In this document: piece after piece, positions 15,930 to 49,713 of the stretch
Numbering within the stretch: position 1 is the first letter of the stretch
Layout: the number at the start of each line of letters is the position of its first letter
Source: Vallitaleaceae bacterium 9-2
Lineage (GTDB): Bacteria > Bacillota > Clostridia > Lachnospirales > Vallitaleaceae
Reading direction: 5' to 3'
Length of the DNA stretch: 64,000 bases
Assembly: GCA_038396585.1 (NCBI GenBank)
Contig: CP121691.1
Location: 3,658,001 to 3,722,000 of the forward strand
Translations under genes and position numbers: made by a program
Notes under the pieces: model-generated
What the model was told of the DNA's origin: nothing
Databases searched by the model: none
The model's input: only the letters and a program-made list of their open reading frames with translations

Positions 15930-16385
15930 TCACCGTACAGTCATTACCTTATCTTTTACTTTTACATGACCTTGCTTTTCAATGGTTATCTGGTGCTCTG
16001 ATGTCACGACAACAGGGGTTATCAATGAGGGAACCTTATCTTTTATTGCCTCTATATCAACTTCACAGAGCAAGTCACCCACCTTGACCTTATCGCCGAC
16101 TTTAACATGCATACGTATGCCTTCGCCTTTGAGCTTAACTGTATCTAGGCCAAAGTGCACCAATATCTCAACACCACTGGGACTTTTTAACCCATAAGCA
16201 TGTCCTGTCTCAAATGCTACCGTGACTTCCCCTTTAATTGGCGAACAGATTCTTCCATTAGAAGGATTTACGGCAAATCCTTCTCCCATCATTTTTTGTG
16301 AAAAAACAGGATCGGGCACTTCTTCCATTCTTATAAGTTCTCCTTCAACGGGAGAACAGACTCGAGTTACTTTGTTCATTAACAT
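15930..16385 (-). CDS. PTS glucose-type EIIA protein
   Basis: About 151 residues. EIIA-Glc fold with the phosphorylated histidine in EILVHFGLDTV (His77) and the supporting histidine in TGHAYGLKS (His62). It takes phosphate from HPr and passes it to an EIIB domain. The start is the ATG at 16385, seven bases after GGAGGA; it follows mupG by one base. MurP-type EIIBC proteins lack an EIIA domain and often rely on a separate glucose-type EIIA. A dedicated copy in the operon fits the EIIBC at 17453-18934. Confidence 0.88.
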   Translation of the reverse strand: MLMNKVTRVCSPVEGELIRMEEVPDPVFSQKMMGEGFAVNPSNGRICSPIKGEVTVAFETGHAYGLKSPSGVEILVHFGLDTVKLKGEGIRMHVKVGDKVKVGDLLCEVDIEAIKDKVPSLITPVVVTSEHQITIEKQGHVKVKDKVMTVR

Positions 16386-16386
16386 G

Positions 16387-30786: not shown

Positions 30787-30800
30787 AACTTCCTCCTATA

Positions 30801-31547: not shown

Positions 31548-31568
31548 CCAAAGACCTCCTTTGGACAT

Positions 31569-31597
31569 ATTATAGCAACGCATCTTCATTGTGTCAA
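31569..31597 (-). promoter_or_regulatory. Consensus promoter of the deoR-aldolase unit
   Basis: Minus-strand TTGACA (31592-31597), 17-base spacer, TATAAT (31569-31574), an exact sigma-A consensus. Confidence 0.8.
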
Positions 31598-31601
31598 TAT
31601 T

Positions 31602-31621
31602 TTACTTTCGTTCGAAAGTAA
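31602..31621. promoter_or_regulatory. Palindromic DeoR operator shared by divergent promoters
   Basis: TTACTTTCG-tt-CGAAAGTAA, a perfect 9+9 inverted repeat. TTTCG/CGAAA half-sites are common in DeoR/GlpR-family operators. It lies 4 bases from each of the two facing -35 elements, so one repressor dimer or tetramer could control both. Confidence 0.75.
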
Positions 31622-31625
31622 TCTA

Positions 31626-31654
31626 TTTACATACAGAATATTTTATGCTATTCT
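31626..31654 (+). promoter_or_regulatory. Promoter of the FGGY kinase gene
   Basis: TTTACA (31626-31631), 17-base spacer, TATTCT (31649-31654). Confidence 0.6.
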
Positions 31655-31701
31655 AAAGACAACATTTCAGATACTTATTCATCAATGCAGGAGGTATATT
31701 T

Positions 31702-33222
31702 ATGGTACACTATCTAATTGCACACGACCTTGGTACATCAGGCAACAAGGCATCCCTATTTACTACTGATGGGAAACTGATTCGTAGCCAAACCGTTTCC
31801 TATCCCACCCACTATGCACCCGGACATATTGCAGAGCAAAACCCTGAGGATTGGTGGCAAGCGGTAATTCAATCGACACAGCACATCCTTAAGGGAATCG
31901 AGGCTGATCAAGTCCTTGCCATGTCATTTTCTGCACAAATGCAAGGCTGTGTTCTCGTAGACAGCCATGGTGATGTGTTGCGTCCAGCTATTATCTGGGC
32001 AGATCATCGTGCACTTGATGAAACTACATATCTTATCGATCAACTAGGTCAAGAGACTATCTATTCCATCACGGGGCACCGACCAAGCGCCAGCTACAGT
32101 CTGGAAAAACTAATGTGGATTCAACGTCATGAACCTCATCTTTACAAAAGAGCTGCATATATGTTGCAAGCAAAAGACTACATCATCCATAAGTTAACCG
32201 GCATCTTTGCTACCGATGCTTCCGACGCTTCAGGTACCAATGCCTACGATCTTAAAAATCAATGCTGGTCAAAAGAGATTCTTGATGCTGCGAACGTTCG
32301 CCTTGACCTTTTTCCTCCCATCCTTAGATCAATTGATGTTGCTGGAAGCTTAACCGCTGATGCCGCCAAAGCTCTTGGCCTTTCGTCAAATGTACGCGTG
32401 GTTATGGGTGGTGGAGATGGTCCTTGCTCCGCTCTTGGTGCAGGTTGTATTGAACCCAACTCATTATTTTTAACTTTTGGAACTTCCGCATGGATTGGTG
32501 GAACCACCGATGATGTCTTTATTGATCCTAAACAACGCCTTTTCTGCTTTGCGCATGTTATTCCCGGAAAGTATATGCCTTGTGGAACTATGCAGTCCGC
32601 CGGAAGTGCTTATAGTTACATCAAAGACCTCTTCTATCAAGCAGAATGTATGACGGCAAAAACACATGAACAAGACCCCTACGATGTACTTGGTGACTTA
32701 CTGACCCAATCACCTGTTGGAAGCAATAAACTTTTCTTCCTTCCATATCTTACCGGCGAACGCAGTCCGCACTGGAATCCCAAGGCTTCAGGTAGTTATA
32801 TTGGTATGGCTATGCACCATACAAAAGCTGATTATCTTCGAAGTGTGATTGAGGGCATCGGATACAATTTGCGTCTGATATTGGATGCATATCAGCCGCA
32901 ACTATCGGTTCCAGACATGATGTTTACTGGCGGCGGTGCAAAAGGTGACCAAGTTTCACAGATATTAAGCGACGTCTTAAATATTAAGTTAACCCGTCCA
33001 AAACATGTTGAAAATGCAACCTCTATTGCAGCCGCAATTCTCGCGGGTATTGGCATTGGTCTTTTTGAAGATTTCGATGTGATTCATGATTTTCTTCCTC
33101 TGCAAGATACCATTGTTCCAAATCCAACCCATAGCGCACTATACAATCAACAGCTTCTTTTATTTCAAGAAATATATGATGCACTATGCCCAATTTATAA
33201 GCGCCTTCATACAACAACATAA
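31702..33222 (+). CDS. FGGY-family carbohydrate kinase, xylulokinase-like
   Basis: 506 residues. N-terminal ATPase domain opens LIAHDLGTSGNKASLF (Asp9, phosphate-binding Gly-Thr). SFSAQMQGCVLVD and IIWADHRA match the xylulokinase substrate region; GGGDGPCSALGAG holds the catalytic base Asp; MFTGGGAKGDQVSQIL is the adenosine motif. The likely reaction is phosphorylation of a ketopentose or related polyol. It diverges from the deoR-FSA unit. Xylulokinase is the best label, but the FSA partner suggests the substrate could be another ketose. Confidence 0.85.
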   Translation: MVHYLIAHDLGTSGNKASLFTTDGKLIRSQTVSYPTHYAPGHIAEQNPEDWWQAVIQSTQHILKGIEADQVLAMSFSAQMQGCVLVDSHGDVLRPAIIWADHRALDETTYLIDQLGQETIYSITGHRPSASYSLEKLMWIQRHEPHLYKRAAYMLQAKDYIIHKLTGIFATDASDASGTNAYDLKNQCWSKEILDAANVRLDLFPPILRSIDVAGSLTADAAKALGLSSNVRVVMGGGDGPCSALGAGCIEPNSLFLTFGTSAWIGGTTDDVFIDPKQRLFCFAHVIPGKYMPCGTMQSAGSAYSYIKDLFYQAECMTAKTHEQDPYDVLGDLLTQSPVGSNKLFFLPYLTGERSPHWNPKASGSYIGMAMHHTKADYLRSVIEGIGYNLRLILDAYQPQLSVPDMMFTGGGAKGDQVSQILSDVLNIKLTRPKHVENATSIAAAILAGIGIGLFEDFDVIHDFLPLQDTIVPNPTHSALYNQQLLLFQEIYDALCPIYKRLHTTT

Positions 33223-35374: not shown

Positions 35375-35406
35375 AAAGAGATATTGCTATTAAACAATAT
35401 CTCTTT
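35375..35406 (-). terminator. Terminator of the large glycosidase/peptidase operon
   Basis: AAAGAGATATTG (35375-35386) pairs with CAATATCTCTTT (35395-35406), 12 perfect pairs; the minus strand continues with a short T-run (35373-35377 region). It lies 15 bases after the ROK stop. Confidence 0.75.
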
Positions 35407-35420
35407 GAATATCTTTTTAC

Positions 35421-36377
35421 TTATGCATATAATTTGTACAGCATCCCAGCTCCGATAATTCCAGCATCATTGCCCAGCTGACAAATCACAAGTTTGGTTT
35501 TCAACCCAGACGCTGCTTTTCCCATTTCGTTGTAGATTTCTTCATTTAACAGATTTAGCAATACTTCTTTTTGATTTGAAATCCCTCCACCTAGAGCGAT
35601 AGCCTCTGGTTGAAATGTATTAATTACATTGACAATCCCTATGGCCAAGTTATGTATATAGCTTTTGATCAGTTCATATGCATAAGGATCTTTTTGATGA
35701 TATGCCTTAAAAACTATCTCTGGTGAAATATGCTCTATATTGTTTTGGGCAAACTCAAAAATCAAAGATTCCGGATATTTTTTTATCATTTGCTTGGCTT
35801 CATATATCAATGCCGTTGCCGATGAATACACATCCCAGCACCCATGGCGTCCACATGGGCAAGGGCGTCCGTCTGCTCGAATCACTGTATGACCAAGCTC
35901 TGCCCCTGCGTGATAGGTTCCTGAAAAAATTTTATTATCCATAATAATTCCAGAACCTATTCCCGTTCCGATAGTAATCGCTACAAAGCTTTTATAGTCC
36001 TTACCTATGCCCGCCACATATTCTCCATAAGCTGCGGCATTTGCATCATTTTCTATATGAATCGGACATGGTAGCATCTCTTGAAGATGCGCCTGAATCG
36101 GTACATCTTCAAAAGCCAAATTCGATGCAAAGACCACTCGACCACTATGAGGATCAATAATTCCGGGGCACCCTACACCAACCGATTGAACCGCACCCAT
36201 TCGAATACCATAATCTTTGACTAATGATTTAACCAGTATTCCAATATCATTAACAATCGCTTCCCAATGGCGTTCTCGCCGGGTGGGAATACTCTTTTTA
36301 AATACAATATTTCCTTGCGAATCCAGTACCGCACCAGCGATATTGGTCCCTCCTAGGTCAATCCCAATTGAATACAT
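35421..36377 (-). CDS. ROK-family sugar kinase
   Basis: 318 residues. IGIDLGGTNIAGAVLD is the ATP-binding phosphate loop, VGCPGIID and IENDANAAAYGEY the substrate and catalytic segments (Asp in ENDAN). The zinc site reads CPCGRHGCWD, with Asp in place of the common Glu after CW. Glucokinase-like ROK proteins phosphorylate glucose, GlcNAc or ManNAc. It is the last gene of the eight-gene operon, 11 bases after the transglutaminase-fold gene, and probably acts on the sugar released by upstream enzymes. Confidence 0.9.
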   Translation of the reverse strand: MYSIGIDLGGTNIAGAVLDSQGNIVFKKSIPTRRERHWEAIVNDIGILVKSLVKDYGIRMGAVQSVGVGCPGIIDPHSGRVVFASNLAFEDVPIQAHLQEMLPCPIHIENDANAAAYGEYVAGIGKDYKSFVAITIGTGIGSGIIMDNKIFSGTYHAGAELGHTVIRADGRPCPCGRHGCWDVYSSATALIYEAKQMIKKYPESLIFEFAQNNIEHISPEIVFKAYHQKDPYAYELIKSYIHNLAIGIVNVINTFQPEAIALGGGISNQKEVLLNLLNEEIYNEMGKAASGLKTKLVICQLGNDAGIIGAGMLYKLYA

Positions 36378-36388
36378 CTTCTACCTCC

Positions 36389-38887
36389 TTATCGATTGAG
36401 TATTTTCATAATTAAAGAAGATAAGCCGACATTATATCCACTAAAACCATAGACTACATTTAATCCGTTTTCTGTCACCATCGTCAGTGGATATTTATTG
36501 GGTTCAACAAATATTCTTCGCGCAATGTCTTCAACATCGCTTTCATCATATAGATAATATACTTTAATTTGCGGTAAAACCTCTAAAGTTTTTTCTAATG
36601 TCGCATTTTCAAGGGCTTGTTGATTTTTTAAGATAAAGATAATAGGTACATTACTTTCACGATATTCTTTTTCTTTGGCTTGTAGCTCATTTAAAATATG
36701 TTCTGTAGGTTCACGTCCTTCTTCCAGCCATATAACTACAGCTTTTTCATCATGAAGAATATCTGCGGCTTCATATGTTTGGTCTCCATCGGATAGGAAA
36801 AAGTTGGGAATAGTAATATTTTTTAGCATGTCTTGTATATTCCCACTCTCTAACGTAATCTCCAAATGCTTGACTTCATCTGCTTGGATTTGTAGATAGT
36901 GCTGTGTAACCCACAGGGAGCCATTGGGCATACGATTACTGCAAAGTACTCTATATTTTCCTGGCACAAGCTTATGGGTATAAGTTCCTGCCTCCCAAGC
37001 AAGCTGCTCATAATTTAGCGTGATATATCGCCCTTTTTCTTGACGAGCGATGGTATAGTTTTGAAAATATTCCCACCGATGCTGACTCGCATTGACCAAG
37101 ACAAGCTCGCCTATATTTTTTTCTTCATATAATGGGATAAATCTTCCATCCGACCAATAATGCACCTCACCTGTAACAGCATCCAATTTTGCCGCAATTC
37201 CTAGCGTTCGGTAAATACATACACAAGCAATTTTTTGTGACATTCGACTGCCAATGCCATAGGTCAATATATCTAAAGGATTGGTATATAGAGCATCATA
37301 GGCTTTGTCATCAACGGATTGTACGTGGGCGCGAAGATACTCATAGACCCGTCGAGGCTGCTCGAGAAAGCGTGCTTTTTGTTCTTGGGTAAAATAGTTG
37401 TCAATAAACGCCCGATATGCTGTCAGCTCTTCATAATAAACCCGTGGATTTAAAAGATAGGCACCATATACATCCCTCTCTTGCAAAGCTTTATATTGAA
37501 GGGCATGACGTAAATGGTGTTTTAACATATCTGCCGTTACATCTTTGTAGTCTTTTAAGCACAAGGAATTAAGGAGCATCTTCTTATCTTCCCACTCAAA
37601 ATCCGAATCCAAAATAAAGGATTTTAGTTCGCCAAAGTTCTCCCCACTTTCTAGGATTCCTTCAACAATCTGTGTCGCTTGTATGTGCTGTTCTTCCAAA
37701 AACTGTGTGGCTTCGTTCGTCCATTGTCTCACCTTCGCTTTTCGACGCCCGTCACTTTGATCAAACTTTGTACGTCTGACCTGCTTTTCCTCTTGAGATA
37801 GAGGTCTATAGATTTGTGGTGCATCCAGCGGTGCATGAAAATGATAGGTTCCACTATATTCTTTACAGTGTTGCCGATTATTTTTAATCAAAGTCACATT
37901 CTCTTCATACATGGTCGCAATTGCTTCACCAATATATACATTATCTTTATGTGCAATAAGGTGTACATCGCCTAGTCCGGTCATCACCTTGGCTCGTCCC
38001 AGATGATTGGTATGAAGCTTTGCAATCGGAAAATATTCCGAATAATTTAAGACTTCAACTTCAACTTTTGCACCTTGAATCCCTTGTCCGTATTCATCAA
38101 CTACGGTTATATTAAGCTCTTTGATTTTTGCATAGCGATGCAGATGATTGACCATCTCCACTTGATTGTTCATCATAAACAGGCGACTGTGAATCATCAT
38201 GGCACGCGCCGAAGCCGCATTAAACCACCCAAGATCTAGCTCTTGTTCCGGCTCACAGGCTCCCAAGTAGTGCCAACGTCCATCAATCCAAGCCTCAACC
38301 CATGCATGGTTGTCATCACAATGGGACCATCTAGGAACATATACCTGTCGTGCAGGTATTCCCACACTTCTTAGGGCCGTCACCGTAAATGTAGACTCTT
38401 CACCACACCGACCGTTTGCGGTTCGAAGTAAAGTTAATGGCGAGGATGTACGTTCATCCGTGCTCTTATACGTCACATTTTCCAAACACCAATAATTTAT
38501 ATCCAATACTGCTGCTTCCATTGACTTGTCTTTGATGTGATGTATAAGCCGTTCATAAAAAATGGGTCTGCAATCTTCAATTTTTTCATTATTGATTCTT
38601 GGAAAAACCACATAATCCAAAAAAATATCTGTTGGCATCTGTTGGCACCAACCAATATTTTCATACAAAAACATGCCGTGTCTGACATAGGATAAAAAAA
38701 CCTCAAATTCAACATTAAACCAATCACTCATTGGCACACAGCTATATATGTATTTTAGATAATGTTGTTCTTCTTGACTACACTGTTGTAGCGCATTAAA
38801 AATAGGGTGGTCTTGTTGCCCTATTTTAAGCATTGTTGTATTAAAACTATGATCAATAGCTCTTAACTGTTCTGGAGTAAAAATCAT
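36389..38887 (-). CDS. Large transglutaminase-fold protein, PNGase-like active-site motifs
   Basis: 832 residues, no signal peptide. The transglutaminase core at about 125-215 has GRCGEES (Cys161), IPARQV, NHAWVEAW (His194) and a Trp205-led strand. The spacing resembles peptide:N-glycanase (GRCGE...HVW.E...W). The usual third-acid position (Asp four residues after the Trp) is Gly209 here; Glu212 and Glu214 lie just after. Residues about 257-330 look like a beta-sandwich. Around 555-605 is a degenerate second core (SRMSQKIACVCIYRTLGIAA...HYWSDGRF) without Cys at the nucleophile. The last 140 residues resemble a thioredoxin fold without a CxxC. A protease, amidase or transglutaminase role is equally possible. 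Start ATG behind GGGAGG. Confidence 0.75.
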   Translation of the reverse strand: MIFTPEQLRAIDHSFNTTMLKIGQQDHPIFNALQQCSQEEQHYLKYIYSCVPMSDWFNVEFEVFLSYVRHGMFLYENIGWCQQMPTDIFLDYVVFPRINNEKIEDCRPIFYERLIHHIKDKSMEAAVLDINYWCLENVTYKSTDERTSSPLTLLRTANGRCGEESTFTVTALRSVGIPARQVYVPRWSHCDDNHAWVEAWIDGRWHYLGACEPEQELDLGWFNAASARAMMIHSRLFMMNNQVEMVNHLHRYAKIKELNITVVDEYGQGIQGAKVEVEVLNYSEYFPIAKLHTNHLGRAKVMTGLGDVHLIAHKDNVYIGEAIATMYEENVTLIKNNRQHCKEYSGTYHFHAPLDAPQIYRPLSQEEKQVRRTKFDQSDGRRKAKVRQWTNEATQFLEEQHIQATQIVEGILESGENFGELKSFILDSDFEWEDKKMLLNSLCLKDYKDVTADMLKHHLRHALQYKALQERDVYGAYLLNPRVYYEELTAYRAFIDNYFTQEQKARFLEQPRRVYEYLRAHVQSVDDKAYDALYTNPLDILTYGIGSRMSQKIACVCIYRTLGIAAKLDAVTGEVHYWSDGRFIPLYEEKNIGELVLVNASQHRWEYFQNYTIARQEKGRYITLNYEQLAWEAGTYTHKLVPGKYRVLCSNRMPNGSLWVTQHYLQIQADEVKHLEITLESGNIQDMLKNITIPNFFLSDGDQTYEAADILHDEKAVVIWLEEGREPTEHILNELQAKEKEYRESNVPIIFILKNQQALENATLEKTLEVLPQIKVYYLYDESDVEDIARRIFVEPNKYPLTMVTENGLNVVYGFSGYNVGLSSLIMKILNR

Positions 38888-38899
38888 ATGGCCTCCCTT

Positions 38900-39658
38900 T
38901 TATATCCTTTTTTTCAATTTATTTTCTAAGCTCGTATATACTTTACGTATCTTTTCACTATCCGTCACCCAGTAGGCATATTCGTCAATATATTCACTTC
39001 CCATCGTCACTTGTTCCTTGCGATAAACCATTGGGCTGTCATGACGTTTTTTCCCGGACAAATGGAAGGTATGGGCTTGGGTTCGATCAATAAGTTCTTC
39101 AATATTATTCTCATTAACACCGCTTCCAACCATAATGTCAATCTGATCGGCGGATAATTCCACTAACTCTTTAAGCAGTTGTGCTCCATCTATACAATGG
39201 TTTTGCTGTCCGGAGGTTAAAATAGTCTGGATGCCAAGTTTTTTTGCCTGTTCAAGAGTTTCATATGGATTTTTTGACATGTCAAAAGCTCGATGCAACG
39301 TAATGTGCATATTGCCTGCTATTTTTATAAGCTCTTGCATATGCTGCATATCAAGTGTACCATCCGGTTTAAGCATTCCAATGACCACTCCATCTGCACC
39401 GGCATGCTTGAAAAGTTCGACTTCACGACACATCCGACGAAACTCGTATTGACTATAGCAAAAGTCTCCTGCCCGCGGACGAATTAATACATGTACCTTC
39501 ATCTTGGTTGCTTCCTTAACCAACTCATATAGAGCCAAGCTAGGGCTCGTTCCTCCAACAATCAAATCACTGCATAATTCTAGGCGCATGGCTCCGCCTT
39601 TTTTTGCTTCGATGGCCGATTCTACTGAATCAACACATGCTTCCAAAATAAAATCCAT
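38900..39658 (-). CDS. cutC: CutC-family TIM-barrel protein
   Basis: About 252 residues. Family signatures: LEACVDSVESAIEAKKGGAMRLELCSDL at the start, HVLIRPRAGDFCYSQ, GVVIGMLKPDGTLD, TLHRAFDM and ILTSGQ. CutC was named for copper homeostasis in E. coli, but its enzymatic role is unproven and homologues often sit beside sugar catabolism genes, as here. The start is the ATG at 39658, six bases after GGAGG; the longer frame to 39697 overlaps the aminopeptidase gene. It lies between the M17 and transglutaminase-fold genes. Confidence 0.88.
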   Translation of the reverse strand: MDFILEACVDSVESAIEAKKGGAMRLELCSDLIVGGTSPSLALYELVKEATKMKVHVLIRPRAGDFCYSQYEFRRMCREVELFKHAGADGVVIGMLKPDGTLDMQHMQELIKIAGNMHITLHRAFDMSKNPYETLEQAKKLGIQTILTSGQQNHCIDGAQLLKELVELSADQIDIMVGSGVNENNIEELIDRTQAHTFHLSGKKRHDSPMVYRKEQVTMGSEYIDEYAYWVTDSEKIRKVYTSLENKLKKRI

Positions 39659-39693
39659 CATCTTCCTCCCTACTTTGCTTGAAGCTTTCTTAA

Positions 39694-41118
39694 TCATTTG
39701 TTTGTAGACTTCAATAAGTGATACAATGTTGTCACACCACTTCCGGTTGCCCCTTTTGTTTGATACTCAAACACAGGTGTATCCACCCAGGCCGTCCCTG
39801 CAATGTCCACGTGAATCCATGGAATCTGTTGAATAAAATTTTCCAAAAAAATACCGGCGGTAATTGTCCCCAAATAGGAGGCGCCCACATTTTTTATATC
39901 GGCAATACTACTTTCCAATAATTGACGATACTCATCATAGATTGGCAGTTGCAGATATTGTTCGCCACTTGCGCCTGCCGCTTCTAAAAAGTCTTGTGCA
40001 AATCGATGATCATTGGACAAAATCCCCGCGGTAGAAAATCCAAGTGCTGAGACAACACTTCCTGTTAACGTTGCAATATCCACAACACGATCCACTTTTT
40101 CATTTTGCTGTACATAGGTCAAACTATCTGCAAGAATCAACCGTCCTTCAGCATCTGTGTTAATGATCTCAATGGTTTTGCCTGACATAGAACCAATCAC
40201 GTCTCCCGGAACATAACTTTCCCGTGATAATCGATTCTCACAGGTCGGTATGACACCGATGACATTCGCTTTGACTTGGTTTTTCGCTAATGCACACATT
40301 ACACCAAGCACTGTTGCACCCCCTGCCATATCCCCTTTGATGCCAAGCATGGATTGGCTGGGTTTTAGGCAATACCCTCCGGTATCGCAGGTAATTCCTT
40401 TACCTACAAGTGCTGTTGTTGACTTCGTTAAGGGATTGCCATAATAGCGCATAATAATAAGTCGTGTGTGTTGACTTCCGCTACTTCCTACCGTCAAAAA
40501 TGCCTTCATACCCAGTTCATGAATCTTTTCTTCGTCAAAGACATCAACTTCAAAGTGCTCTTGTTGTCCAAGCTCTAGCGCTATCTTTGCAAATGTAATC
40601 GGTGTCAAGTAATTCGACGGCATATTAACTAGGTTTCGAGTCAATATGATGCTTTCCACAAGATTCTTCGCATGGGTGATGCGCTGTTTTACCTCATCTT
40701 GCATCTCCTCCATAAAACCATATAGAAAAATATCATACTCCGTCGCTTCTTGTGTTTGTTTATAGGATACAGGTGCGTATAGCCCTAGCATAATTCCTTC
40801 AACTAGGGCGTCTACGACAGGTACTCCATAGGCTTTGATCAAAAGCTCAACATGAATACTGCAGGTCTTAATTTTATCTTGTATTAAGGCTTTCATCCCT
40901 TTGGCAACACAAGCCTTAACGCGTTGTGTACTAAGTTTGTCACGTTCTCCAAGTCCAACCATGAGCGTTTGACACTGATTGTCAAACGCTCTAGAGAGAT
41001 GGAGATAATCTCCTCGGTGATTATCTCCATCTGCTGAATACATAAAATCAAGGTTTATCGATTTTTGAGGCATCATACCACAATCTATTTGTATCTTTTG
41101 GTTTAATATTGTATACAT
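39694..41118 (-). CDS. Leucyl aminopeptidase (M17 family)
   Basis: 474 residues. The two-zinc active site is visible: VGKGITCDTGGYCLKP (Lys, Asp ligands), GDMAGGATVLG, and the M17 signature NTDAEGRLILADSLTY. N-terminal domain about 1-150, catalytic domain from about 155. The cytoplasmic enzyme removes N-terminal residues from peptides. Unusually, it is embedded in a sugar-import operon, overlapping the GHL6-type gene upstream by 16 bases, so its substrate probably enters with the sugar. The ribosome site (AAAGGG) is weak, consistent with translational coupling. Confidence 0.9.
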   Translation of the reverse strand: MYTILNQKIQIDCGMMPQKSINLDFMYSADGDNHRGDYLHLSRAFDNQCQTLMVGLGERDKLSTQRVKACVAKGMKALIQDKIKTCSIHVELLIKAYGVPVVDALVEGIMLGLYAPVSYKQTQEATEYDIFLYGFMEEMQDEVKQRITHAKNLVESIILTRNLVNMPSNYLTPITFAKIALELGQQEHFEVDVFDEEKIHELGMKAFLTVGSSGSQHTRLIIMRYYGNPLTKSTTALVGKGITCDTGGYCLKPSQSMLGIKGDMAGGATVLGVMCALAKNQVKANVIGVIPTCENRLSRESYVPGDVIGSMSGKTIEIINTDAEGRLILADSLTYVQQNEKVDRVVDIATLTGSVVSALGFSTAGILSNDHRFAQDFLEAAGASGEQYLQLPIYDEYRQLLESSIADIKNVGASYLGTITAGIFLENFIQQIPWIHVDIAGTAWVDTPVFEYQTKGATGSGVTTLYHLLKSTNK

Positions 41119-43094
41119 ATCATCTCATGCCCTTTCACACCATAATTGAAAATGTCAATGTAGTCTTCTCGGCACTTAAAATCAATGTCTTTTTCTGTGG
41201 TTACATTATATACCCGCTTAACCTCTTGGTCGCCTACATAGACACTAATATCCAGCGCATTTAATGTATGGACATCTTCAACGGTATATAGATTTTTCGC
41301 TCTTTTTTCAATAATGTAGTGCAGTAGATGTAAGACATCTCGGTTATGCTCCTCTTGATGATTCAAGGTCGTCAACAATGTCGATGGACCGTTATGCGAC
41401 ACCACTCCACTGCCAATCAAAGCATGAATCAAATCTCTAACTACTATTTTACACCATTTTGGACAATAATCATTATAAATCGTAAAAATCGGATGGGATA
41501 TATAGATGGCATTGTCTAAGCGTGTAACTGCCGGCGTTCCTTCTTGCCCTGATGATGGTGCATGCTGGTGGGAACAGTAAGTATCGCCTTCTCGATTAAA
41601 GTAAGGTTTAACTGAAGACATTAATATTTGGGCTTTGTCTGCCTCTACTGCTGCTCCTTTTTCATACATCACATAAGGTTCTGGAAAGAGTTCACTGGCG
41701 ACGACTTCATTAGGAAGTATAAAATCACGATCATATGGGGACTCTCCATGATAACGTACCCCAAATACATTATCCTTTTGACCACTAAGGTCTAGGTTTG
41801 ATTGGTAACTTCCAAGCACTTTACCTCCTTGACCGATATAATTTTCTAAGCGCTCATTCAAGTATGTTGAGTACTGAATGTGGTCAGGTAAAATCAACAG
41901 CTTATATTTTGAAAAATCCATTTCACTATCAATAATATCAAACTGAAGGCTCAATTCTTGAAGTATGCGGACAGTCCCCATCAAACTTGGTGGCAACCCT
42001 AAGTCATGATCTTTTGAAGTATAAAATTCTTCGGGTGTTAATACGCCAATTTCAGTAATGGCCTTTGCCCCAAAACAGTAAGGTTCTTTTTTTGCCACTT
42101 GACCATATACGTGTTCAATCAAACTGTAACCTGCCTCAGATAATTCGCCAAGGGGGTGAAGTTGGTCTCCGACGGAACACCCGGCATTCATGGCTAGCAT
42201 TTGAAAGCATTCATACTCTAGTGCTGCTTGATTTTTGACCGAGTGAAAATCCCCCCAGTATGTATGGAACTTGCCTGTCATGCCTAAGATTTCTTTGTCT
42301 AAGTGACGTGCATAACGCACCGTCGTAGGAAAATGCATATAGCCCCATCCACCACTTGGCAAAGATTCCAGTTCCAGGTGGGTATATGCGTCAAGGTTAT
42401 TTTTTATTGCTGGTCCAATATGGGAGCTATTATAAAAAATACCGACACCAGGAACCCGTTCTTGTATAAAGGCGGTAATCTCTGTCTTAAATTCATTGAG
42501 CATAAGAAGTGAATATTCGATACGGTTCTCTTTTTGTGTAGGATCCATGTTTTTCTCTGCCATTTTCTCTTGGCATACCGGACAATTACAATCCGTTTTA
42601 AAGAGTATATCCATAAAAAATCCGTCAATACGCTCGATGCCCACAGAATCAATAATATCTTGTAAGTGGTCTTTAAAGTATTTTCTATATCCACTATTAA
42701 GGCATATCGTATAGTAAAAATGCGGTTCAGCTACATTTTGACTGTTGATGTGATTGCCCTCTCCATCCACGGCTAACCACTGGGGATATTCTCGTGCAAT
42801 ATAAGCATCCCACTGTACTGTGGTATAGATTGGGGCCTTGATATTTTGTGCATGGCAGGCATCGATTTGCTCAATCAACAAGTTCTTATTATCTAAGTGA
42901 GGATGTATGCGCTCTGGTTGATGCTTGGAAGGGTAGTATAAATTTCCATGATGGCATCTGGCAAAACATGTTATTGAATCTACATTTGCTTTTTTTAAAC
43001 GTTTTGCAAACCGTTCTCCATCAAAATCTTTTCCAATATGTTCAATATGCTCACTCGTGTGAAAATCTAAATGAATCTGACGATAACTTAACAT
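41103..43094 (-). CDS. Putative glycoside hydrolase (GHL6-type barrel with GH42-like trimerisation domain)
   Basis: 663 residues, no signal peptide. N-terminal barrel starts YRQIHLDFHTSEHI and carries SITCFARCHHGNLYYPS, typical of hypothetical glycosyl hydrolase 6 proteins, with RIDGFFMDILF and THLELESLPSGGWGY as likely acidic active-site strands. The region from about 385 (ITEIGVLTP...YKLLILPD) resembles the beta-galactosidase trimerisation domain. A cluster CNCPVC near residue 170 could bind a metal. The glycosidic specificity is unknown; fucosidase or galactosidase labels are seen for relatives. First enzyme gene after the importer in the operon; AGGAGG before the ATG. Confidence 0.72.
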   Translation of the reverse strand: MLSYRQIHLDFHTSEHIEHIGKDFDGERFAKRLKKANVDSITCFARCHHGNLYYPSKHQPERIHPHLDNKNLLIEQIDACHAQNIKAPIYTTVQWDAYIAREYPQWLAVDGEGNHINSQNVAEPHFYYTICLNSGYRKYFKDHLQDIIDSVGIERIDGFFMDILFKTDCNCPVCQEKMAEKNMDPTQKENRIEYSLLMLNEFKTEITAFIQERVPGVGIFYNSSHIGPAIKNNLDAYTHLELESLPSGGWGYMHFPTTVRYARHLDKEILGMTGKFHTYWGDFHSVKNQAALEYECFQMLAMNAGCSVGDQLHPLGELSEAGYSLIEHVYGQVAKKEPYCFGAKAITEIGVLTPEEFYTSKDHDLGLPPSLMGTVRILQELSLQFDIIDSEMDFSKYKLLILPDHIQYSTYLNERLENYIGQGGKVLGSYQSNLDLSGQKDNVFGVRYHGESPYDRDFILPNEVVASELFPEPYVMYEKGAAVEADKAQILMSSVKPYFNREGDTYCSHQHAPSSGQEGTPAVTRLDNAIYISHPIFTIYNDYCPKWCKIVVRDLIHALIGSGVVSHNGPSTLLTTLNHQEEHNRDVLHLLHYIIEKRAKNLYTVEDVHTLNALDISVYVGDQEVKRVYNVTTEKDIDFKCREDYIDIFNYGVKGHEMICIQY

Positions 43095-43119
43095 ATGTTC
43101 CTCCTATTTTGTCCTTTGC

Positions 43120-43944
43120 TTAACCTTTTACTGCACCAGCTGCCAGTCCACCTTCCACTTTTTCCTGGAATAGTAGGTAGATAATCAGCGGTATGCAAAC
43201 AGTAATAATAATTGCTGCCATCAAGGGACCATATTCTGATCCACGTTCACCATTAAAATTTAGCAATCCCAAAGAAATGGGCTTAAGTTTATTGTCGTTG
43301 ATGAACAACAGCGGGAATAAGACATTATTCCATGCACCTAAAAAGTTAAAAATCGATATGGTTGAGATTGCAGGCACAGACATTGGCAACATGATTCTCC
43401 AATAGATTTGAAAATATCCGGCACCGTCAATAATCGCCGCTTCCTCAAGGGATGCATCAATTCCTCGCATAAATGTTGTCAATACCATGATGCTAAAAGG
43501 TAATGAAAATGCTACATAAATTAAAATCAAAGCCATCAAATTATTTTTCAAGTTAAACATTCCAATAATATAGGCAACAGGAACTAAAACTGAATGCATA
43601 GGAATCATCATTCCTAACAAGAAAAATAGGGAAATTGCTCGGTTAAATTTAAATGTAAACCTTGACAATACATACGCCACCATTGAGGCGGTAACAATAA
43701 GCAATACAATGGTCATTACCGATATAAAGATACTATTAATAAAATAGGTTCCCATATTTGCTTCAACCCAAGCGACTTTATAATTCTCATACAAGAACTT
43801 TGCCGGTAAGCCAAAAGGTGAATCAAATATTTCCACATTGTTTTTAAATGATGATAATGCTGTAAATAGCATGGGGCCGATAAAGGCTGCCGCCATAACA
43901 ATTAAGAACAAAAATGTAATGATTTTATTGATATTTTTTTTCAC
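43120..43944 (-). CDS. Sugar ABC importer permease (CUT1, MalG-like), GTG start
   Basis: About 274 residues with six membrane segments. EAA loop SLEEAAIIDGAGYFQIYWRI and the C-terminal AAGAVKG are typical of MalG-like subunits. The GTG at 43944 (VKKNINK) is chosen because AGAGGTG ends seven bases before it and the frame then no longer overlaps the partner permease, whose stop codon is at 43949-43951. Pairs with 43949-44839; no ATPase in the operon. Confidence 0.88.
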   Translation of the reverse strand: MKKNINKIITFLFLIVMAAAFIGPMLFTALSSFKNNVEIFDSPFGLPAKFLYENYKVAWVEANMGTYFINSIFISVMTIVLLIVTASMVAYVLSRFTFKFNRAISLFFLLGMMIPMHSVLVPVAYIIGMFNLKNNLMALILIYVAFSLPFSIMVLTTFMRGIDASLEEAAIIDGAGYFQIYWRIMLPMSVPAISTISIFNFLGAWNNVLFPLLFINDNKLKPISLGLLNFNGERGSEYGPLMAAIIITVCIPLIIYLLFQEKVEGGLAAGAVKG

Positions 43945-43948
43945 TTTT

Positions 43949-44839
43949 TTACACCTCTTTTCTATTTCCTTGCAATAAACGTTGTCCACCAACCGTTAGA
44001 ATCAAGGCAATCAATAAAATAATGATTCCTATTGCACTACCCAATCCATAATTATCATATCTAAAGGCTTCATAGTACATTAACGTTGTCGGTAAGTTCG
44101 TCAATCCATTCGGTCCGCCTTCCGTCATGACAAAAATCAACTCAAAGACTTTAACGGTTCCAATGATATCCATAAGGATACACATGCTGATAATCGGTTT
44201 AAGCATTGGAATGGTAATGTAAAAAAGTTTGGTTACGCCATTAACACCATCAAGTGCTGCAGCTTCATATACTTCGTTGGGTATAGTGGTTAACCCTGCT
44301 AAGAGGATGACCATATAGTAGCCTATTCCAACCCATATATTTACAAAAATAATCGTATTCATCGCTGTTGAGGGGTTAATAAGCCATGCTGTTGCTAAAT
44401 TATCCAACCCAAGCGATGTCAACATTGCATTCATTGAACCATTGGGCATGAAGATAAAATACCATAACAAGCCAACTGCTGTCAGTGGAAATACGGTCGG
44501 CACGAAAAAAATCGCTTTAAAGACTCGATAACCTTTGTATCGGTTATTAATGGCAACCGCTAGCAACAATGCAATGGGTGTATGAAACAACACACTAAAA
44601 AATACCATACGCATCATATTCTTTAACGATAGAATAAAATTCGGGTTGTTAAATGCCGTTATATAATTTTTTAATCCTACAAATTCCAACGCTGCGCCTT
44701 TGATTCCATTCCACTCTACGAGAGAAAAGTATACGGCTCCTAACATAGGAATAATCATAAATACAACATATATGATTAATGCAGGGGCTAAAAAGAGAAA
44801 AAGCTTGGTTTTATCCTTCGTTTTTTTTAATGTTCTCAA
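43949..44839 (-). CDS. Sugar ABC importer permease (CUT1, MalF-like), probable TTG start
   Basis: About 296 residues with six membrane segments. EAA loop PNEVYEAAALDGVNGVTKLF is clear. A TTG at 44839 has GAGG eight bases upstream and gives a normal basic N-terminus (RTLKKTKDKTK). The longer frame to 44893 would begin inside the hairpin at 44868-44905, so I reject it. It follows the solute-binding protein gene after that hairpin. Confidence 0.85.
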   Translation of the reverse strand: MRTLKKTKDKTKLFLFLAPALIIYVVFMIIPMLGAVYFSLVEWNGIKGAALEFVGLKNYITAFNNPNFILSLKNMMRMVFFSVLFHTPIALLLAVAINNRYKGYRVFKAIFFVPTVFPLTAVGLLWYFIFMPNGSMNAMLTSLGLDNLATAWLINPSTAMNTIIFVNIWVGIGYYMVILLAGLTTIPNEVYEAAALDGVNGVTKLFYITIPMLKPIISMCILMDIIGTVKVFELIFVMTEGGPNGLTNLPTTLMYYEAFRYDNYGLGSAIGIIILLIALILTVGGQRLLQGNRKEV

Positions 44840-44867
44840 TCTGATTACCTCACTAACCTTTTGTAAA

Positions 44868-44905
44868 AAATGAGAACAAAGTGCAACATGCACCCGTTCT
44901 CATTT
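44868..44905 (-). terminator. Intercistronic hairpin (partial terminator) after the solute-binding protein gene
   Basis: AAATGAGAAC (44868-44877) pairs with GTTCTCATTT (44896-44905), and inside it GTGCA/TGCAC pair. On the minus strand six Ts follow. It lies between the binding-protein and permease genes and would make the binding protein more abundant than the membrane subunits. Confidence 0.7.
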
Positions 44906-44918
44906 ATTAACTTTTATT

Positions 44919-46277
44919 TTACTTATTATCGATTTCTGATTGAATCTCTTGTGCTGCTTGTTCTGGTGTGTTACCCACAAACATACCTACAATAGAGTTT
45001 CTTGTACGGTCTTGCATAGATCCTACCGGGTCAAAGTCAAAGACGTCAACTGCAATTCCTTCTGATGTTCCACCAAGCTCTGCAACTTCTTTAAACAAGT
45101 CGCTTACTGTATTGTCTGCAATATCGATATCATTACGAGGCATTAAAAATTGTGCTTCTTCAGCATATCGCTTCGCTGCATCTGCAGATGTTAACATCAT
45201 CACAAGTTCTGTAGTGTATTCTTTTTCCTTACCTTCAAGATCTCCACTCACCATATATGGGCTGATAATTTGCATATCATGATCTTTAAATTCTGGTTTT
45301 TCTTCAAAATATGGGAACTTAGCACTGTGGATATCTTCTGCATATTCTGTCTCTTCAGGATTTGTGAATTTTCCGATATTCCATGGTCCGGTGATAATCA
45401 TTGCCGCTTCACCTTTTAAGAATTGTGTTACTGCAATATCATCGCTAATTCCTGCTGTTCCTTCTGGGAATGCATCCATATCATATAACTCTTTAACATA
45501 AGCAAGCGTTTCTACAACATCTGGATCCGTCCATTTTTTCTCACGTGTTCCAAGCGCTTTAGCCGCATCAATCCCTAACCATTTGTAGAAGATTTGATTG
45601 TGCAAATGTCCCGCCATATATGTTGACTTTGCACCTAAAGCAATCGGTACAATATCGGCTTCGTTTAATGTCACGATCGCTTCTTTTAATTCAGTCCATG
45701 TCTCTGGGAACTTGTCGATTCCTGCGTCATTGAGTACTTTTTCATTATAGAAGACACCGATAAGTCCAGACTCCATAGGCACTCCATAATAACCTTCATA
45801 TCCAGGAACTTTATAATAGTCCATTGCCCCTTTAGCTAAGCCTTCTGACCATTCAGGATTGGCTTCATACACTGGTCCCATATCCATAATCATGCCATTT
45901 TCAATATAATCACTTAGGTTTGCCACCCCTTGAATTCTAAAGATATTTGGCAGTGTACCTGATGCAATGTCCGTCTTAAGTTTGTTGTTAAATGAGGACT
46001 CATCCCCTTGAGATTCATCCACGATGACAACATCTGGATGCTTTGCTTCAAATTCTTTAAGGACATCTTTAAAGATTTGTACTTGAGTTGTTGTTCCTGC
46101 CATTCTTGTTAACAGGCGAATCTCGATTTTTTCTTCGTTATTGGATGTGCTTTCATTTCCTGTGGATGTCTCTTCTCCTGAGTTTGTTGTTGAATTTCCT
46201 TCGTCATTTGTGTTGCCACAAGCTGTCATACTAAAAATCAACGTTAACATCATTAGTAGTGCGATTATTTTTTTCAT
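44919..46277 (-). CDS. Extracellular solute-binding lipoprotein of a sugar ABC importer
   Basis: About 452 residues. Signal MKKIIALLMMLTLIFSMTAC with lipobox MTAC, a Ser/Thr/Asn-rich linker, then a CUT1-type binding domain (IRLLTRMAGTTTQVQIFKDVLKEFEAKHPDV; GEAAMIITGPWNIGKF). The ATG at 46277 is chosen from the lipoprotein signal and a GGGGG ribosome site. It is the first gene of the eight-gene operon and diverges from the two-component system at 46459, its probable regulator. Confidence 0.9.
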   Translation of the reverse strand: MKKIIALLMMLTLIFSMTACGNTNDEGNSTTNSGEETSTGNESTSNNEEKIEIRLLTRMAGTTTQVQIFKDVLKEFEAKHPDVVIVDESQGDESSFNNKLKTDIASGTLPNIFRIQGVANLSDYIENGMIMDMGPVYEANPEWSEGLAKGAMDYYKVPGYEGYYGVPMESGLIGVFYNEKVLNDAGIDKFPETWTELKEAIVTLNEADIVPIALGAKSTYMAGHLHNQIFYKWLGIDAAKALGTREKKWTDPDVVETLAYVKELYDMDAFPEGTAGISDDIAVTQFLKGEAAMIITGPWNIGKFTNPEETEYAEDIHSAKFPYFEEKPEFKDHDMQIISPYMVSGDLEGKEKEYTTELVMMLTSADAAKRYAEEAQFLMPRNDIDIADNTVSDLFKEVAELGGTSEGIAVDVFDFDPVGSMQDRTRNSIVGMFVGNTPEQAAQEIQSEIDNK

Positions 46278-46458
46278 TTGGTACCCCCATTGATAAAATA
46301 ATTTTATTAGTGACACGTCAATAGTAGCAAAATTATTGCTCTACTTCCATGGACATAACTTCTTTTTTTTGTACTTTTTCAATATTTTCCCACAAAAACT
46401 CGAATCTATTATATACTAATTATACAATAATCAGGAACCCTCCAAAGGAGATTATATT

Positions 46459-48168
46459 ATGAAGCAATTTTCCAATCGTATAAAAAACTTACGTATCAAG
46501 CATAAAATCTTTATTGGAATCTTAATAACATCGATTATTTCTATATATCTTATTTTTGTCACAACTGCAATTATCATGTACAATTATCACATCCGCCTTA
46601 CCTCGACGGCTTCCATGAAAGAACTGGACTATATCACTAAACAGTTAGACACTACTTTAAATACCGTTGAAAACTTTGGAAAAACTATTGCTGTCACTCC
46701 ATCTGTTCAGACATTTACCGATAAATTCAATGCCGCTCCCGAAACATTTAACCCCCTCGATGCATTCAATTTAAAAAATGATATTAACACGATTATCCAG
46801 TCAACCCCTTTTATCCATTCCGTCTCCATATATTCTTCTGCACGTGAGCTCATTGCCACAACAGACAATGCAACAACACCGCCTAATATTGATGGGATTA
46901 ACATATCCGAAAACATATGGATTTCTCGCGAAAAAATAAAAGCTTACTATCCGAATCAGACCGTAAGCGTTATCTCATATATCCAAGAGTTTTATGGTTA
47001 CAACGACGGAAAACTCCTTGGCTACATAGAGATTTCCATACCTGAAACCTCTATTTCCAATATCTATAATAATAAGTCCACCCATCACTATAGCAATCAA
47101 TTTATTGTTGATCATCATGGATTTGTCCGCAGTACCGATGGGTCCTACAAGCTCTACCAATACTACGCCGATTTTTTAGATATTATTGTCCCGGAATCTT
47201 CCGGCTTTAATTATGTTAATGATGACATTGTTTTTTACAAATATTATGACCGACTCGACTGGTATTTGGTTTATGCTATTAATCGCAACTTTTTCTTAGA
47301 ACCCATGTATTCCCTTATCCTTGTGTCCGCAGGCATCACTATTCTAGGATTGATATTAGCAAGTTTGTTATCTCTTAAGATATCTAAAACCATCACCATG
47401 CCCATTGATTTTTTGATTCGTCATATTCAAAAAGTCATCAAAGGGGATTGGACCCCGCTTAACAGCGCGACATATGATAAAGATATCCAGTTTTTATACC
47501 ATGAGTTTAATGCCATGTTAAAAGCGCAAACCAAGTTGACCTCTGACCTCATTAACGAGCAACAGTTAAAAGAAAAGCTCTCCCTTGATTTACTTCAGCA
47601 ACAAGTCAACCCGCATTTTTTATATAACGCTTTAGATAATATATGCTCTCTGGCTGAGATGGAAGAAAAAGATATCCTTGTGGATGTGGTCATGAATCTT
47701 TCGAATTTTTATCGGGAAGCACTTAATGATGGCAGCATCTATATTACCATTGGACAAGAGCTATCGATTATCGAGTCCTATCTTAAGATTATGCTGGTAC
47801 GCTACTATCAAAAATTTGATTATACGATTGAATGTTCCGAGTATTTGAAGAATAAACAGTGCCTTAAACTGCTACTTCAACCTATTGTCGAGAACAGCAT
47901 CTATCATGGTATCAAAGAGATGAACGGAAAAGGGCATATTCAGATTCGTGTCTTTGAAGAAGACGGTTCCGTCTATTTCCATATTCAAGACAACGGTATC
48001 GGCATTAAAGAAGAAACCATTCAACGCATTTGGGATCAAGACAGTCGAAGCTTTGGTTTAAAAAATGCCAACCAACGTATCAAACTATACTATGGTGATG
48101 ATTATGGTATCACCATCTCAAAAAATGCCCCCAAGGGTTGCCTTGTTATTATACGCATAAAAGCATAA
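46459..48168 (+). CDS. YesM-like sensor histidine kinase
   Basis: 569 residues. Membrane segments at about 18-40 and 285-305 flank an extracytoplasmic sensor; HAMP follows. The HisKA_7TM-type phosphoacceptor region reads QQVNPHFLYNALDNICSLAE (His near 386) and the ATPase part has PIVENSIYHGI (N box) and DNGIGI (G1). This is the LytS/YesM class that senses sugars outside the cell. AAGGAG ribosome site. The response regulator gene follows after 18 bases. Confidence 0.92.
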   Translation: MKQFSNRIKNLRIKHKIFIGILITSIISIYLIFVTTAIIMYNYHIRLTSTASMKELDYITKQLDTTLNTVENFGKTIAVTPSVQTFTDKFNAAPETFNPLDAFNLKNDINTIIQSTPFIHSVSIYSSARELIATTDNATTPPNIDGINISENIWISREKIKAYYPNQTVSVISYIQEFYGYNDGKLLGYIEISIPETSISNIYNNKSTHHYSNQFIVDHHGFVRSTDGSYKLYQYYADFLDIIVPESSGFNYVNDDIVFYKYYDRLDWYLVYAINRNFFLEPMYSLILVSAGITILGLILASLLSLKISKTITMPIDFLIRHIQKVIKGDWTPLNSATYDKDIQFLYHEFNAMLKAQTKLTSDLINEQQLKEKLSLDLLQQQVNPHFLYNALDNICSLAEMEEKDILVDVVMNLSNFYREALNDGSIYITIGQELSIIESYLKIMLVRYYQKFDYTIECSEYLKNKQCLKLLLQPIVENSIYHGIKEMNGKGHIQIRVFEEDGSVYFHIQDNGIGIKEETIQRIWDQDSRSFGLKNANQRIKLYYGDDYGITISKNAPKGCLVIIRIKA

Positions 48169-48186
48169 CTGAAAAGGAGTTTATCT

Positions 48187-49713
48187 ATGTTTAACGTACT
48201 TATTGCCGATGACGAATACTTTATTCGTCAACGTATCAAAAAAATTATTGATTGGGAATCTCTTGATATGATATGTATTGGAGAAGCAGAAACCGGGGAA
48301 GAAACCATACGTTTTTTGGATCAAAATGATATTGACATATTGCTTCTTGATATTAATATGCCTTCTATGTCCGGCCTACAAGTTGCCGAGCATGTCTATA
48401 CACATAAATATAAGACAAAGATTATTATTTTAACCGGTTTTAACCGTTTTGATTATGCACAAACCGCATTAAAGTTAAGGGTTGAAGATTACTTGGTCAA
48501 GCCAATTAATAAAGCCGATCTTAATAAGACCCTTGAAAATTGCAAGGCACGAATTCTAACCCAAAGAAAAGCCGATCTTGACCTACACAATTATCAACGC
48601 TATATTCAAAAGAACACCTTATATAAAGTTATTGATGCTACGATGGCTTTTTCTTCTTTGGCAGAATTGATGCCTGCCATCACACGCTATGCATACACGG
48701 CATTTGTAAGCCTCTATCTGCCGACGCACCATAATTCACATGTTGAACAAATCGCGCAACAATTATCCGCTTTATTCAAAGCAGAACATTACACAGACTA
48801 TGACATCGTCTCATTTCAAGAATCTGAATCCATCACTATCTTTCAATTGCTGATGGCTAAACCTATTGAGCGCAATACACTTGTTCATCTATTTTCAACC
48901 GTTTTAAACCAATATTTATCCCATACCATCCATTACTTTGCTGCGTTTAGCCATATCCTCCCCATTCAGGACGTCTGGGCAGATGCCTATCAGGCAACAT
49001 TCACGGCACTTAATACACGCTACTTTAAGCCAAAGGATAAGATTATCCTTGCGGATAACGCTTCCCATACCATCACCACTTCCGGGTCGGTTTCTATAAG
49101 AAACCAGCTAACCGTTTATCTAAATGCAAAAGATGTCGCCGCGATTGAACAATTACTCGATAATTTATTTTTCAATATTCAACAGGCTGAGTCCTACGAC
49201 TATTTACTAATTGCCGTTACAGAGATCTTTATCACATTAAAAATAAGCTACCCTCATCAATTTAATCTCATCGAAACAACGATTCAAGATTTGATTTTAG
49301 ATAGCTATGCATTAACAGATATAAAAGAAACAATGATGCTCTATATTTCCCAGTGTTTGGAAACCGTTGTACACGATAAGCCATCGAATACCGTTTTGGT
49401 CAATAAAGTCATCGATTATATTAACAAAAACTATACTGCCAATGATTTATCGGTCGCTGAAATATCTGCATATTTTGATTTTACGCCTACATATTTAGGC
49501 ACAACCTTTAAAAAGATTACGCAACAGTCCTTGTTACAATATATTACCAACATTCGTATGGATAAGGCAAAAGATCTCTTGACCCATACGGACACCTCCA
49601 TTACAGAAATTTCAGAGTGTGTTGGCTATTCAGATGTGTTCTACTTTAGCAAAAAATTCAAAGCCATTCACGGCTGCTCGCCAAAAGAATACGCCAAGCG
49701 AAACCGCTCATAG
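48187..49713 (+). CDS. YesN-like response regulator with AraC DNA-binding domain
   Basis: 508 residues. Receiver domain 1-125 with the acidic pair Asp8-Asp9, phosphoacceptor Asp55 in LLLDINMPS and Lys in YLVKPI. A central variable region, then the AraC domain from about 405 (IDYINKNYTANDLSVAEISAYFDFTPTYLGTTFKKIT; ISECVGYSDVFYFSKKFKAIHGCSPKEY). Partner of the kinase upstream; the divergent operon at 46277 is the likely target. Ends at a hairpin. Confidence 0.92.
   Translation: MFNVLIADDEYFIRQRIKKIIDWESLDMICIGEAETGEETIRFLDQNDIDILLLDINMPSMSGLQVAEHVYTHKYKTKIIILTGFNRFDYAQTALKLRVEDYLVKPINKADLNKTLENCKARILTQRKADLDLHNYQRYIQKNTLYKVIDATMAFSSLAELMPAITRYAYTAFVSLYLPTHHNSHVEQIAQQLSALFKAEHYTDYDIVSFQESESITIFQLLMAKPIERNTLVHLFSTVLNQYLSHTIHYFAAFSHILPIQDVWADAYQATFTALNTRYFKPKDKIILADNASHTITTSGSVSIRNQLTVYLNAKDVAAIEQLLDNLFFNIQQAESYDYLLIAVTEIFITLKISYPHQFNLIETTIQDLILDSYALTDIKETMMLYISQCLETVVHDKPSNTVLVNKVIDYINKNYTANDLSVAEISAYFDFTPTYLGTTFKKITQQSLLQYITNIRMDKAKDLLTHTDTSITEISECVGYSDVFYFSKKFKAIHGCSPKEYAKRNRS

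Follow-up and report, generated by a model that had tools for sequence, protein, structure and literature searches.

What might a bacterium gain from an operon that joins a sugar importer to a glycosidase, an aminopeptidase and a transglutaminase-fold protein? The question is raised by a 64,000-nt stretch of the genome of Vallitaleaceae bacterium 9-2 (contig CP121691.1; genome code G000), which we call, in its entirety, the window. Eight genes on its minus strand run from 46277 to 35421 with intergenic gaps of -44 to +25 bp and encode, in order, a solute-binding lipoprotein, two permeases, a GHL6-domain protein, an M17 aminopeptidase, a CutC-family protein, a transglutaminase-fold protein (TG) and a ROK-family sugar kinase. 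A first-pass annotation of this DNA had described a single operon facing a YesM/YesN-type two-component system and had suggested that it imports a glycopeptide or glycosylated amino acid, cleaves the sugar-peptide link, trims the peptide and phosphorylates the sugar. All ten genes lie where that annotation put them, the gaps bear out a single operon, and Pfam matches over the curated cut-offs confirm the families (in the operon ROK, Transglut_core, CutC, Peptidase_M17, GHL6, BPD_transp_1 twice and SBP_bac_1). Our analysis narrows the substrate: from sequence comparisons, we hold with fair confidence that the operon imports and dismantles core-fucosylated N-acetylglucosamine-asparagine (GlcNAc-Asn), or short glycopeptides carrying it.

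The glycosidase (41103–43094, minus strand) had been described as a GHL6-type putative glycosidase, which was correct as to its being a glycosidase but left its family unrecognized; homology identifies it as a GH151 alpha-L-fucosidase. Residues 3–663, nearly its full length, align to residues 31–687 of PDB 6tvk (E = 3e-131), which is ALfuk2 of Paenibacillus thiaminolyticus, a GH151 alpha-L-fucosidase whose active site consists of the nucleophile Asp154, the acid/base Glu235 and His503, contributed by the next subunit (PMC10154630). These align with Asp162, Glu243 and His509 of the window protein (positions counted off on the alignment, taking the tag of the 6tvk chain to shift its numbering by 29), meaning that all three published active-site residues are kept. 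Its N-terminus has no signal peptide-like character, a call that here and below uses a hydrophobicity score only, and the enzyme is predicted to be cytoplasmic. GH151 enzymes cleave disaccharides of fucose (Fuc) and GlcNAc (alpha-1,2/3/4/6) as well as Fuc-alpha-1,2-galactose, and the trisaccharides and hexasaccharide for which tests are reported were not cleaved (PMC10154630). Such a preference for disaccharides fits fucose attached to a lone GlcNAc stub. The window protein differs from ALfuk2 in its operon context, and its fucosidase activity is a prediction.

TG (36389–38887, minus strand) has 832 residues and a transglutaminase core (Transglut_core, E = 7e-24), and in it the first-pass annotation had noted motifs like those of peptide:N-glycanases (PNGases). 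A phmmer comparison with the PNGase chains 1x3w, 3esw and 2f4m gave E values of 0.0026 to 0.0057, with Cys161 and His194 of TG inside the aligned segments; we take the Cys and His of the PNGases aligned with them to be the catalytic ones. Among 89 full-length TG sequences, the window's included, Arg160-Cys161-Gly162-Glu163, His194, Gly209, Cys211, Glu212 and Pro213 are invariant. The PNGase catalytic triad is Cys-His-Asp (PMC9102325), and the motif claim therefore stands for Cys161 and His194 but not for the third position, where all 89 TG sequences have Gly209 in place of Asp. A structure prediction, which the first-pass annotation had called for, gave an AlphaFold model with a mean predicted local distance difference test score (pLDDT) of 85. 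A fold search with this model revealed a transglutaminase core, the fold of PNGases, matching transglutaminases at Z about 14 and a root-mean-square deviation of about 3 over about 180–200 residues, as well as a thioredoxin-like end and an Ig-like domain closely resembling PDB 3e8v; no PNGase was among the matches listed, which decides nothing either way. TG thus resembles the eukaryotic cytosolic PNGase (NGLY1/Png1) in its core, in the motif order of its Cys and His and in the bond proposed for it, and differs in the invariant Gly for the triad Asp, followed three residues later by an invariant Glu, and in its other extra domains, the 3e8v-like Ig domain and the thioredoxin-like C-terminus. 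TG may work like a PNGase, yet we do not file it as one because its triad is incomplete.

Glycosylasparaginase cleaves the GlcNAc-Asn amide and releases 1-amino-GlcNAc. Its Pfam family, Asparaginase_2, which also covers isoaspartyl peptidase, has no match in the organism's own genome, leaving TG as the candidate for the amide cut. In the pathway that we propose, the substrate would be core-fucosylated GlcNAc-asparagine or short glycopeptides bearing it, the stub left by endo-glycosidases and proteases on N-glycoproteins. The stub would be taken up by a CUT1-type importer, consisting of the lipoprotein (44919–46277, minus strand; SBP_bac_1, E = 9e-34) and permeases 1 and 2 (43949–44893 and 43120–43992, minus strand; BPD_transp_1), with no ATPase in the operon. 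Its listed open reading frame (ORF) opens at GTG 46316, but the ATG at 46277 starts a lipoprotein-like signal, making 46277 a plausible operon start. GH151 would then strip fucose from GlcNAc, and the M17 protein would trim the peptide, before or after amide cleavage. This predicted cytoplasmic leucyl aminopeptidase (39694–41118, minus strand; Peptidase_M17, E = 1.5e-112) has the M17 signature motifs GKGITCDTGG and NTDAEGRL. TG would hydrolyse the amide to 1-amino-GlcNAc and aspartate (or an Asp peptide), CutC (38900–39697, minus strand; Pfam CutC, E = 2e-64) would act on the released glycosylamine or at an adjoining step, and the ROK protein (35421–36377, minus strand; E = 8e-72; motifs ELGH and CPCGRHGCWD) would phosphorylate GlcNAc. 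The genome also has a NagA-family gene (G000:C1:225190), which would continue from there, and an L-fucose-isomerase-family gene (G000:C1:3479112), whose product would receive the released fucose. We infer the substrates and reactions of the TG, CutC, ROK and importer proteins.

If these genes form one pathway, they might be expected to travel together, and conservation was a check that the first-pass annotation had itself proposed, its absence to count as a refutation. TG was matched in 13 of the 96 genomes searched, the organism's own included, and was long in 10. Two further genomes from the same family (loci L019 and L020) have GH151, M17, CutC and TG in the window's order with importer genes adjoining, so the arrangement is not a matter of chance and the refuting outcome was not seen; the lipoprotein shares 71% identity with its counterpart in G019 and 77% in G014 (over the fetched part), permease 1 75–77% and permease 2 77–80%. 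These data bear on another explanation, in which this is an ordinary fucosyl-oligosaccharide operon (for Fuc-GlcNAc or milk/mucin fragments, for example) where GH151 and ROK do the work and M17, CutC and TG are passengers or have unrelated metabolites as substrates. Free disaccharides are indeed GH151 substrates (PMC10154630), and CUT1 importers and ROK kinases are of the sugar type. However, M17, CutC and TG trail GH151 in the same order in both relatives, and the M17-TG pair also turns up in N-glycan operons that lack GH151 (3 of 19 operons of the GH18 type described below; L026 and L028 are examples). With both the order and the M17-TG pairing recurring, the three are hardly passengers, and we consider the oligosaccharide explanation unlikely.

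To see the company that TG keeps, we assembled 94 loci, chosen by TG similarity alone: 13 neighbourhoods from the genomes searched, the best 80 of at least 584 confirmed relatives, and the window. A TG ORF was obtained in 91 (L054, L083 and L093 were dropped), and merging the duplicate L024/L038 left 90 non-redundant loci. An automatic rule (same strand, gaps <350 bp) defined the operons, and families were assigned by similarity clusters with Pfam checks on representatives; several loci are contig ends, making the counts approximate and probably low, and p values throughout ignore the relatedness of genomes. The 90 TG operons also hold CutC (34), GH29 (26), CUT1 permeases (21), GH18 (19), M17 (15), GH130 (6), GH38 (4), GH151 (3) and ROK (3). 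CutC and GH18 were never found in one TG operon (0/90, p = 3e-5), and this mutual exclusion indicates two operon types. Type I is apparently a whole-N-glycan operon (GH18, GH29, GH130, GH38). Type II, with CutC, is the window's type (n = 34) and includes M17 in nine cases, an M28-family peptidase in two and an Opp-type peptide-binding protein in four, compared to none of the 19 GH18 operons for the last. The organism itself has a type I operon (L028, G000:C1:2592001-2612000) in the order GH29, GH18, M17, GH29, TG, GH130, GH38 plus a LacI regulator, whose proteins all fall below the signal-peptide threshold in N-terminal hydrophobicity. A similarity search found no glycosylasparaginase relative in the 94 loci. 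As separate observations, the TG of L028 is 1157 residues long, its extra N-terminal part resembling a CBM9-type protein of L026, and in L024, L025 and L027 a YjeF/NAD(P)H-hydrate dehydratase gene comes after the CutC-TG pair.

TG's companions also help to weigh whether the substrate could instead be an O-glycopeptide or fucosylated mucin peptide, with TG acting as a cysteine peptidase or deamidase on the peptide and not on the sugar link. The core of TG is a generic transglutaminase/cysteine-protease core, its matches among solved structures include transglutaminases as well as a putative cysteine protease, and the PNGase-typical Asp is missing, all of which would suit such an enzyme. Its neighbours, by contrast, indicate N-glycans (GH38, GH130 and GH18 proteins, the last with EndoS-type matches below the Pfam cut-off), and CutC pairs with glycosylasparaginase-type genes where TG is absent, as set out below. 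We regard the O-glycopeptide explanation as decidedly improbable.

A precedent for the favored pathway, use of core-fucosylated GlcNAc-Asn, exists in the alf-2 cluster of Lactobacillus casei, which serves the use of fucosyl-alpha-1,6-GlcNAc-Asn (PMC6960285). Both systems combine import of a fucosylated glyco-amino acid, an intracellular fucosidase, a peptidase gene, a GlcNAc-Asn amidase and a ROK kinase. The L. casei parts are a major facilitator superfamily permease, the GH29 fucosidase AlfC, the M20 peptidase PepV, the glycosylasparaginase AsnA2 and a GntR repressor, with no CutC among the genes listed (PMC6960285). The window has instead a CUT1 ATP-binding cassette importer, GH151, M17, TG, CutC and YesM/YesN-type control, and ROK is the only family in common. 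Fucosidase, importer, peptidase and ROK kinase are thus present together, whereas the Asparaginase_2-type glycosylasparaginase is not, and the window operon looks like a functional analogue of alf-2 in which almost every role falls to a different family. Comparative genomics supports the glycopeptide reading of the first-pass annotation, through a conserved gene set, TG in N-glycan operons, a fucosidase fitting core fucose and a link, in other genomes, between CutC and glycosylasparaginase-type genes. The support is partial: the annotation had not recognized the glycosidase, the PNGase triad is incomplete, a similar pathway had already been described in L. casei (PMC6960285) and the steps are predicted only. 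According to the L. casei authors, 1-amino-GlcNAc cannot be metabolized and is unstable at acidic pH; they suggest spontaneous breakdown, as the interior of lactobacilli can acidify (PMC6960285). For a cell whose interior stays neutral, an enzyme acting on 1-amino-GlcNAc would be an advantage, and CutC is the candidate for that step.

The reassignment of CutC is the most valuable lead from this locus. The family carries the label 'copper homeostasis' and has a eukaryotic homologue in the PDB (3iwp); in E. coli the copper label of cutC is complicated, since the gene's 3' end carries the small RNA MicL (PMC8216713). We searched for CutC and Asparaginase_2 in 118 Bacteroidota genomes and found them in 34 and 85, respectively, with Asparaginase_2 in all 34 CutC-bearing genomes compared to 51 of the 84 others (p = 2e-6). 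In 14 of the 34 the two genes lie <1 kb apart on the same strand, compared to 0.07 expected by random placement. Full-length TG occurred in a single Bacteroidota genome (G096, Labilibaculum), 0.2 kb from CutC. Within the window's phylum (199 genomes), CutC was over the cut-off in only 20 genomes (set against its presence in 34 of the 90 TG operons) and Asparaginase_2 present in six, four of them with CutC (p = 0.001 for co-occurrence); in all four the genes are 0.1 to 4.6 kb apart, three of the pairs lying inside phosphotransferase system (PTS) operons. The six genomes with Asparaginase_2 and the five with TG do not overlap. Two of the CutC-linked Asparaginase_2 proteins were checked against solved structures and matched glycosylasparaginase better than the best isoaspartyl peptidase (L149, E = 7e-120 vs 2e-36; L121, 4e-59 vs 5e-37), and the others group with them by similarity (21 members).

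Gene neighbourhoods add to this association. We retrieved them for 51 of the 54 CutC genomes in these two samples, leaving out G000, G096 and G389; the ORF caller missed CutC in three (L131, L143 and L159), of which L159 belongs to the 14 Bacteroidota genomes with adjacent genes, a count made from coordinates. Among the 96 immediate CutC neighbours in the remaining 48 loci, Asparaginase_2 was the commonest Pfam family (13), and no copper family was among the 25 listed of 108 neighbour families. The PTS loci L121 and L123 share the order PRD regulator, IIA, Asparaginase_2, IIC, CutC, IIB; L125 is the same without IIC there, and L122 has a complete PTS set with a divergent CutC 4.6 kb off, beside NagA-like and NagB-like genes (families by Pfam on L121 and on the NagA-/NagB-like cluster representatives, otherwise by similarity). 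The PTS of all four loci is of the lactose/cellobiose type, which suggests import of GlcNAc-Asn as its 6-phosphate. A comparable association can be seen in Xanthomonas, where the table of the nix N-glycan cluster includes cutC (XAC3091) (PMC6718126) and the asparaginase XAC3092 of that neighbourhood is named as related to N-glycan catalysis (PMC5700972). Unlike the window operon, no TG is mentioned in the available portions of these papers, where the authors call cutC copper resistance and do not tie it to GlcNAc-Asn (PMC6718126, PMC5700972); neither did the titles and abstract openings of the literature searched, though absence there is weak evidence. Judging by these genomic associations, CutC probably has an enzymatic role in GlcNAc-Asn catabolism and perhaps hydrolyses 1-amino-GlcNAc, which would be the common product of both amidases. 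The joint proposal, that CutC acts in GlcNAc-Asn catabolism, most simply as the missing 1-amino-GlcNAc hydrolase, and is paired by lineage with either glycosylasparaginase or the TG amidase, is tentative and may well prove wrong.

Could CutC instead serve in copper handling or general metabolite repair and simply accompany amino-sugar operons? We think this rather unlikely, given that Asparaginase_2 tops the list of its neighbours (13/96), with no copper family among those listed, and accompanies it in every CutC-bearing Bacteroidota genome. Several observations nevertheless weigh against the reassignment, some of them also speaking for such a role. Among 197 Actinomycetota genomes, CutC (18) and Asparaginase_2 (18) showed no association (both in 2, p = 0.67), leaving 16 of 18 CutC carriers without Asparaginase_2 in a phylum where TG was not searched for. 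One of the two genomes with both has the genes 7 kb apart; the other is Bifidobacterium biavatii (G103), with CutC about 13 kb from a TG gene. CutC neighbourhoods from this phylum were left out of use, the ORF caller having found no CutC in 12 of the 18 loci fetched. In the window's phylum, most CutC genes have neither amidase nearby, and 14 of 18 fetched loci lack an Asparaginase_2 neighbour. L124 (G243:C1:4420500-4432500) holds Opp genes, M17, CutC, ROK and GH29 without TG or Asparaginase_2. In two related loci (L112 and L113), CutC lies with ROK and a NagA-like amidohydrolase in the vicinity of a gene of the NamZ exo-muramidase family, which may be a second context for CutC, related to peptidoglycan. 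A twin-arginine-like motif, which we take to be an export signal, is present at the N-terminus of 15 of the 21 glycosylasparaginase-type proteins; CutC mostly does not look exported, so Bacteroidota would have to import the amine. Finally, the minimal cell Syn3.0 retains CutC (PMC4993169).

Other findings count against the pathway as a whole or the place of CutC in it, in addition to the Gly at the triad position of TG. The importer is of a sugar rather than a peptide type, and PepV is dispensable for glyco-amino acid use in L. casei (PMC6960285). L019 (relative G014) has an opposite-strand ORF between GH151 and the permeases (16162-17334, 390 residues). ROK is absent from the operons of both syntenic relatives and present in only 3 of 90 TG operons, and may be a local addition to the window operon. 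Neither CutC nor GH18 was found in 37 of the 90 TG operons, and 13 TG genes stand alone (some loci being contig ends). Some TG genomes lack CutC or have it elsewhere. Five genomes of the phylum sample have TG with an E value of at most 1e-30: CutC adjoins TG in G000, lies elsewhere in G322 and is missing from the other three, so that this 199-genome sample by itself does not show a TG-CutC link. Lastly, a signal peptide-like N-terminus is seen in 17 of the 91 TG proteins, almost all of these being Bacteroidota proteins. Since some TG proteins look exported and CutC mostly does not, the two need not share a compartment in Bacteroidota.

Core-fucosylated N-glycoprotein remnants are a host-derived food for gut bacteria. 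If our reading is true, the operon is a second dedicated catabolic route beside that of L. casei, the only one found in the literature covered, and is built almost wholly from other protein families. TG would be a new, widespread bacterial family, with at least 584 relatives confirmed, from which new amidases for work on glycopeptides could be drawn; the literature searched (titles, abstract openings and top results) held no description of it, an absence of little weight. The CutC link, if true, would give a family that may carry the wrong label an enzymatic role open to testing, and might conceivably matter for the fate of the glycosylamine released by human NGLY1.

The two-component genes diverge from the operon on the plus strand and agree with a YesM/YesN-type pair. 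The first encodes a YesM-type sensor histidine kinase (46459–48168; His_kinase and HATPase_c over the cut-off, dCache below it) and the second a YesN-type response regulator with a receiver and an AraC-type helix-turn-helix (48187–49713; Response_reg, HTH_18). Between the operon end and the next gene, a consensus scan alone picked out a terminator-like stem-loop (35375–35406, listed on the plus strand) with a 12-pair stem and a T-rich tail. Farther along, at 30109-33222 of the window, transaldolase-like and FGGY-kinase-like genes surround a DeoR-like regulator, their families judged by eye from the translations.

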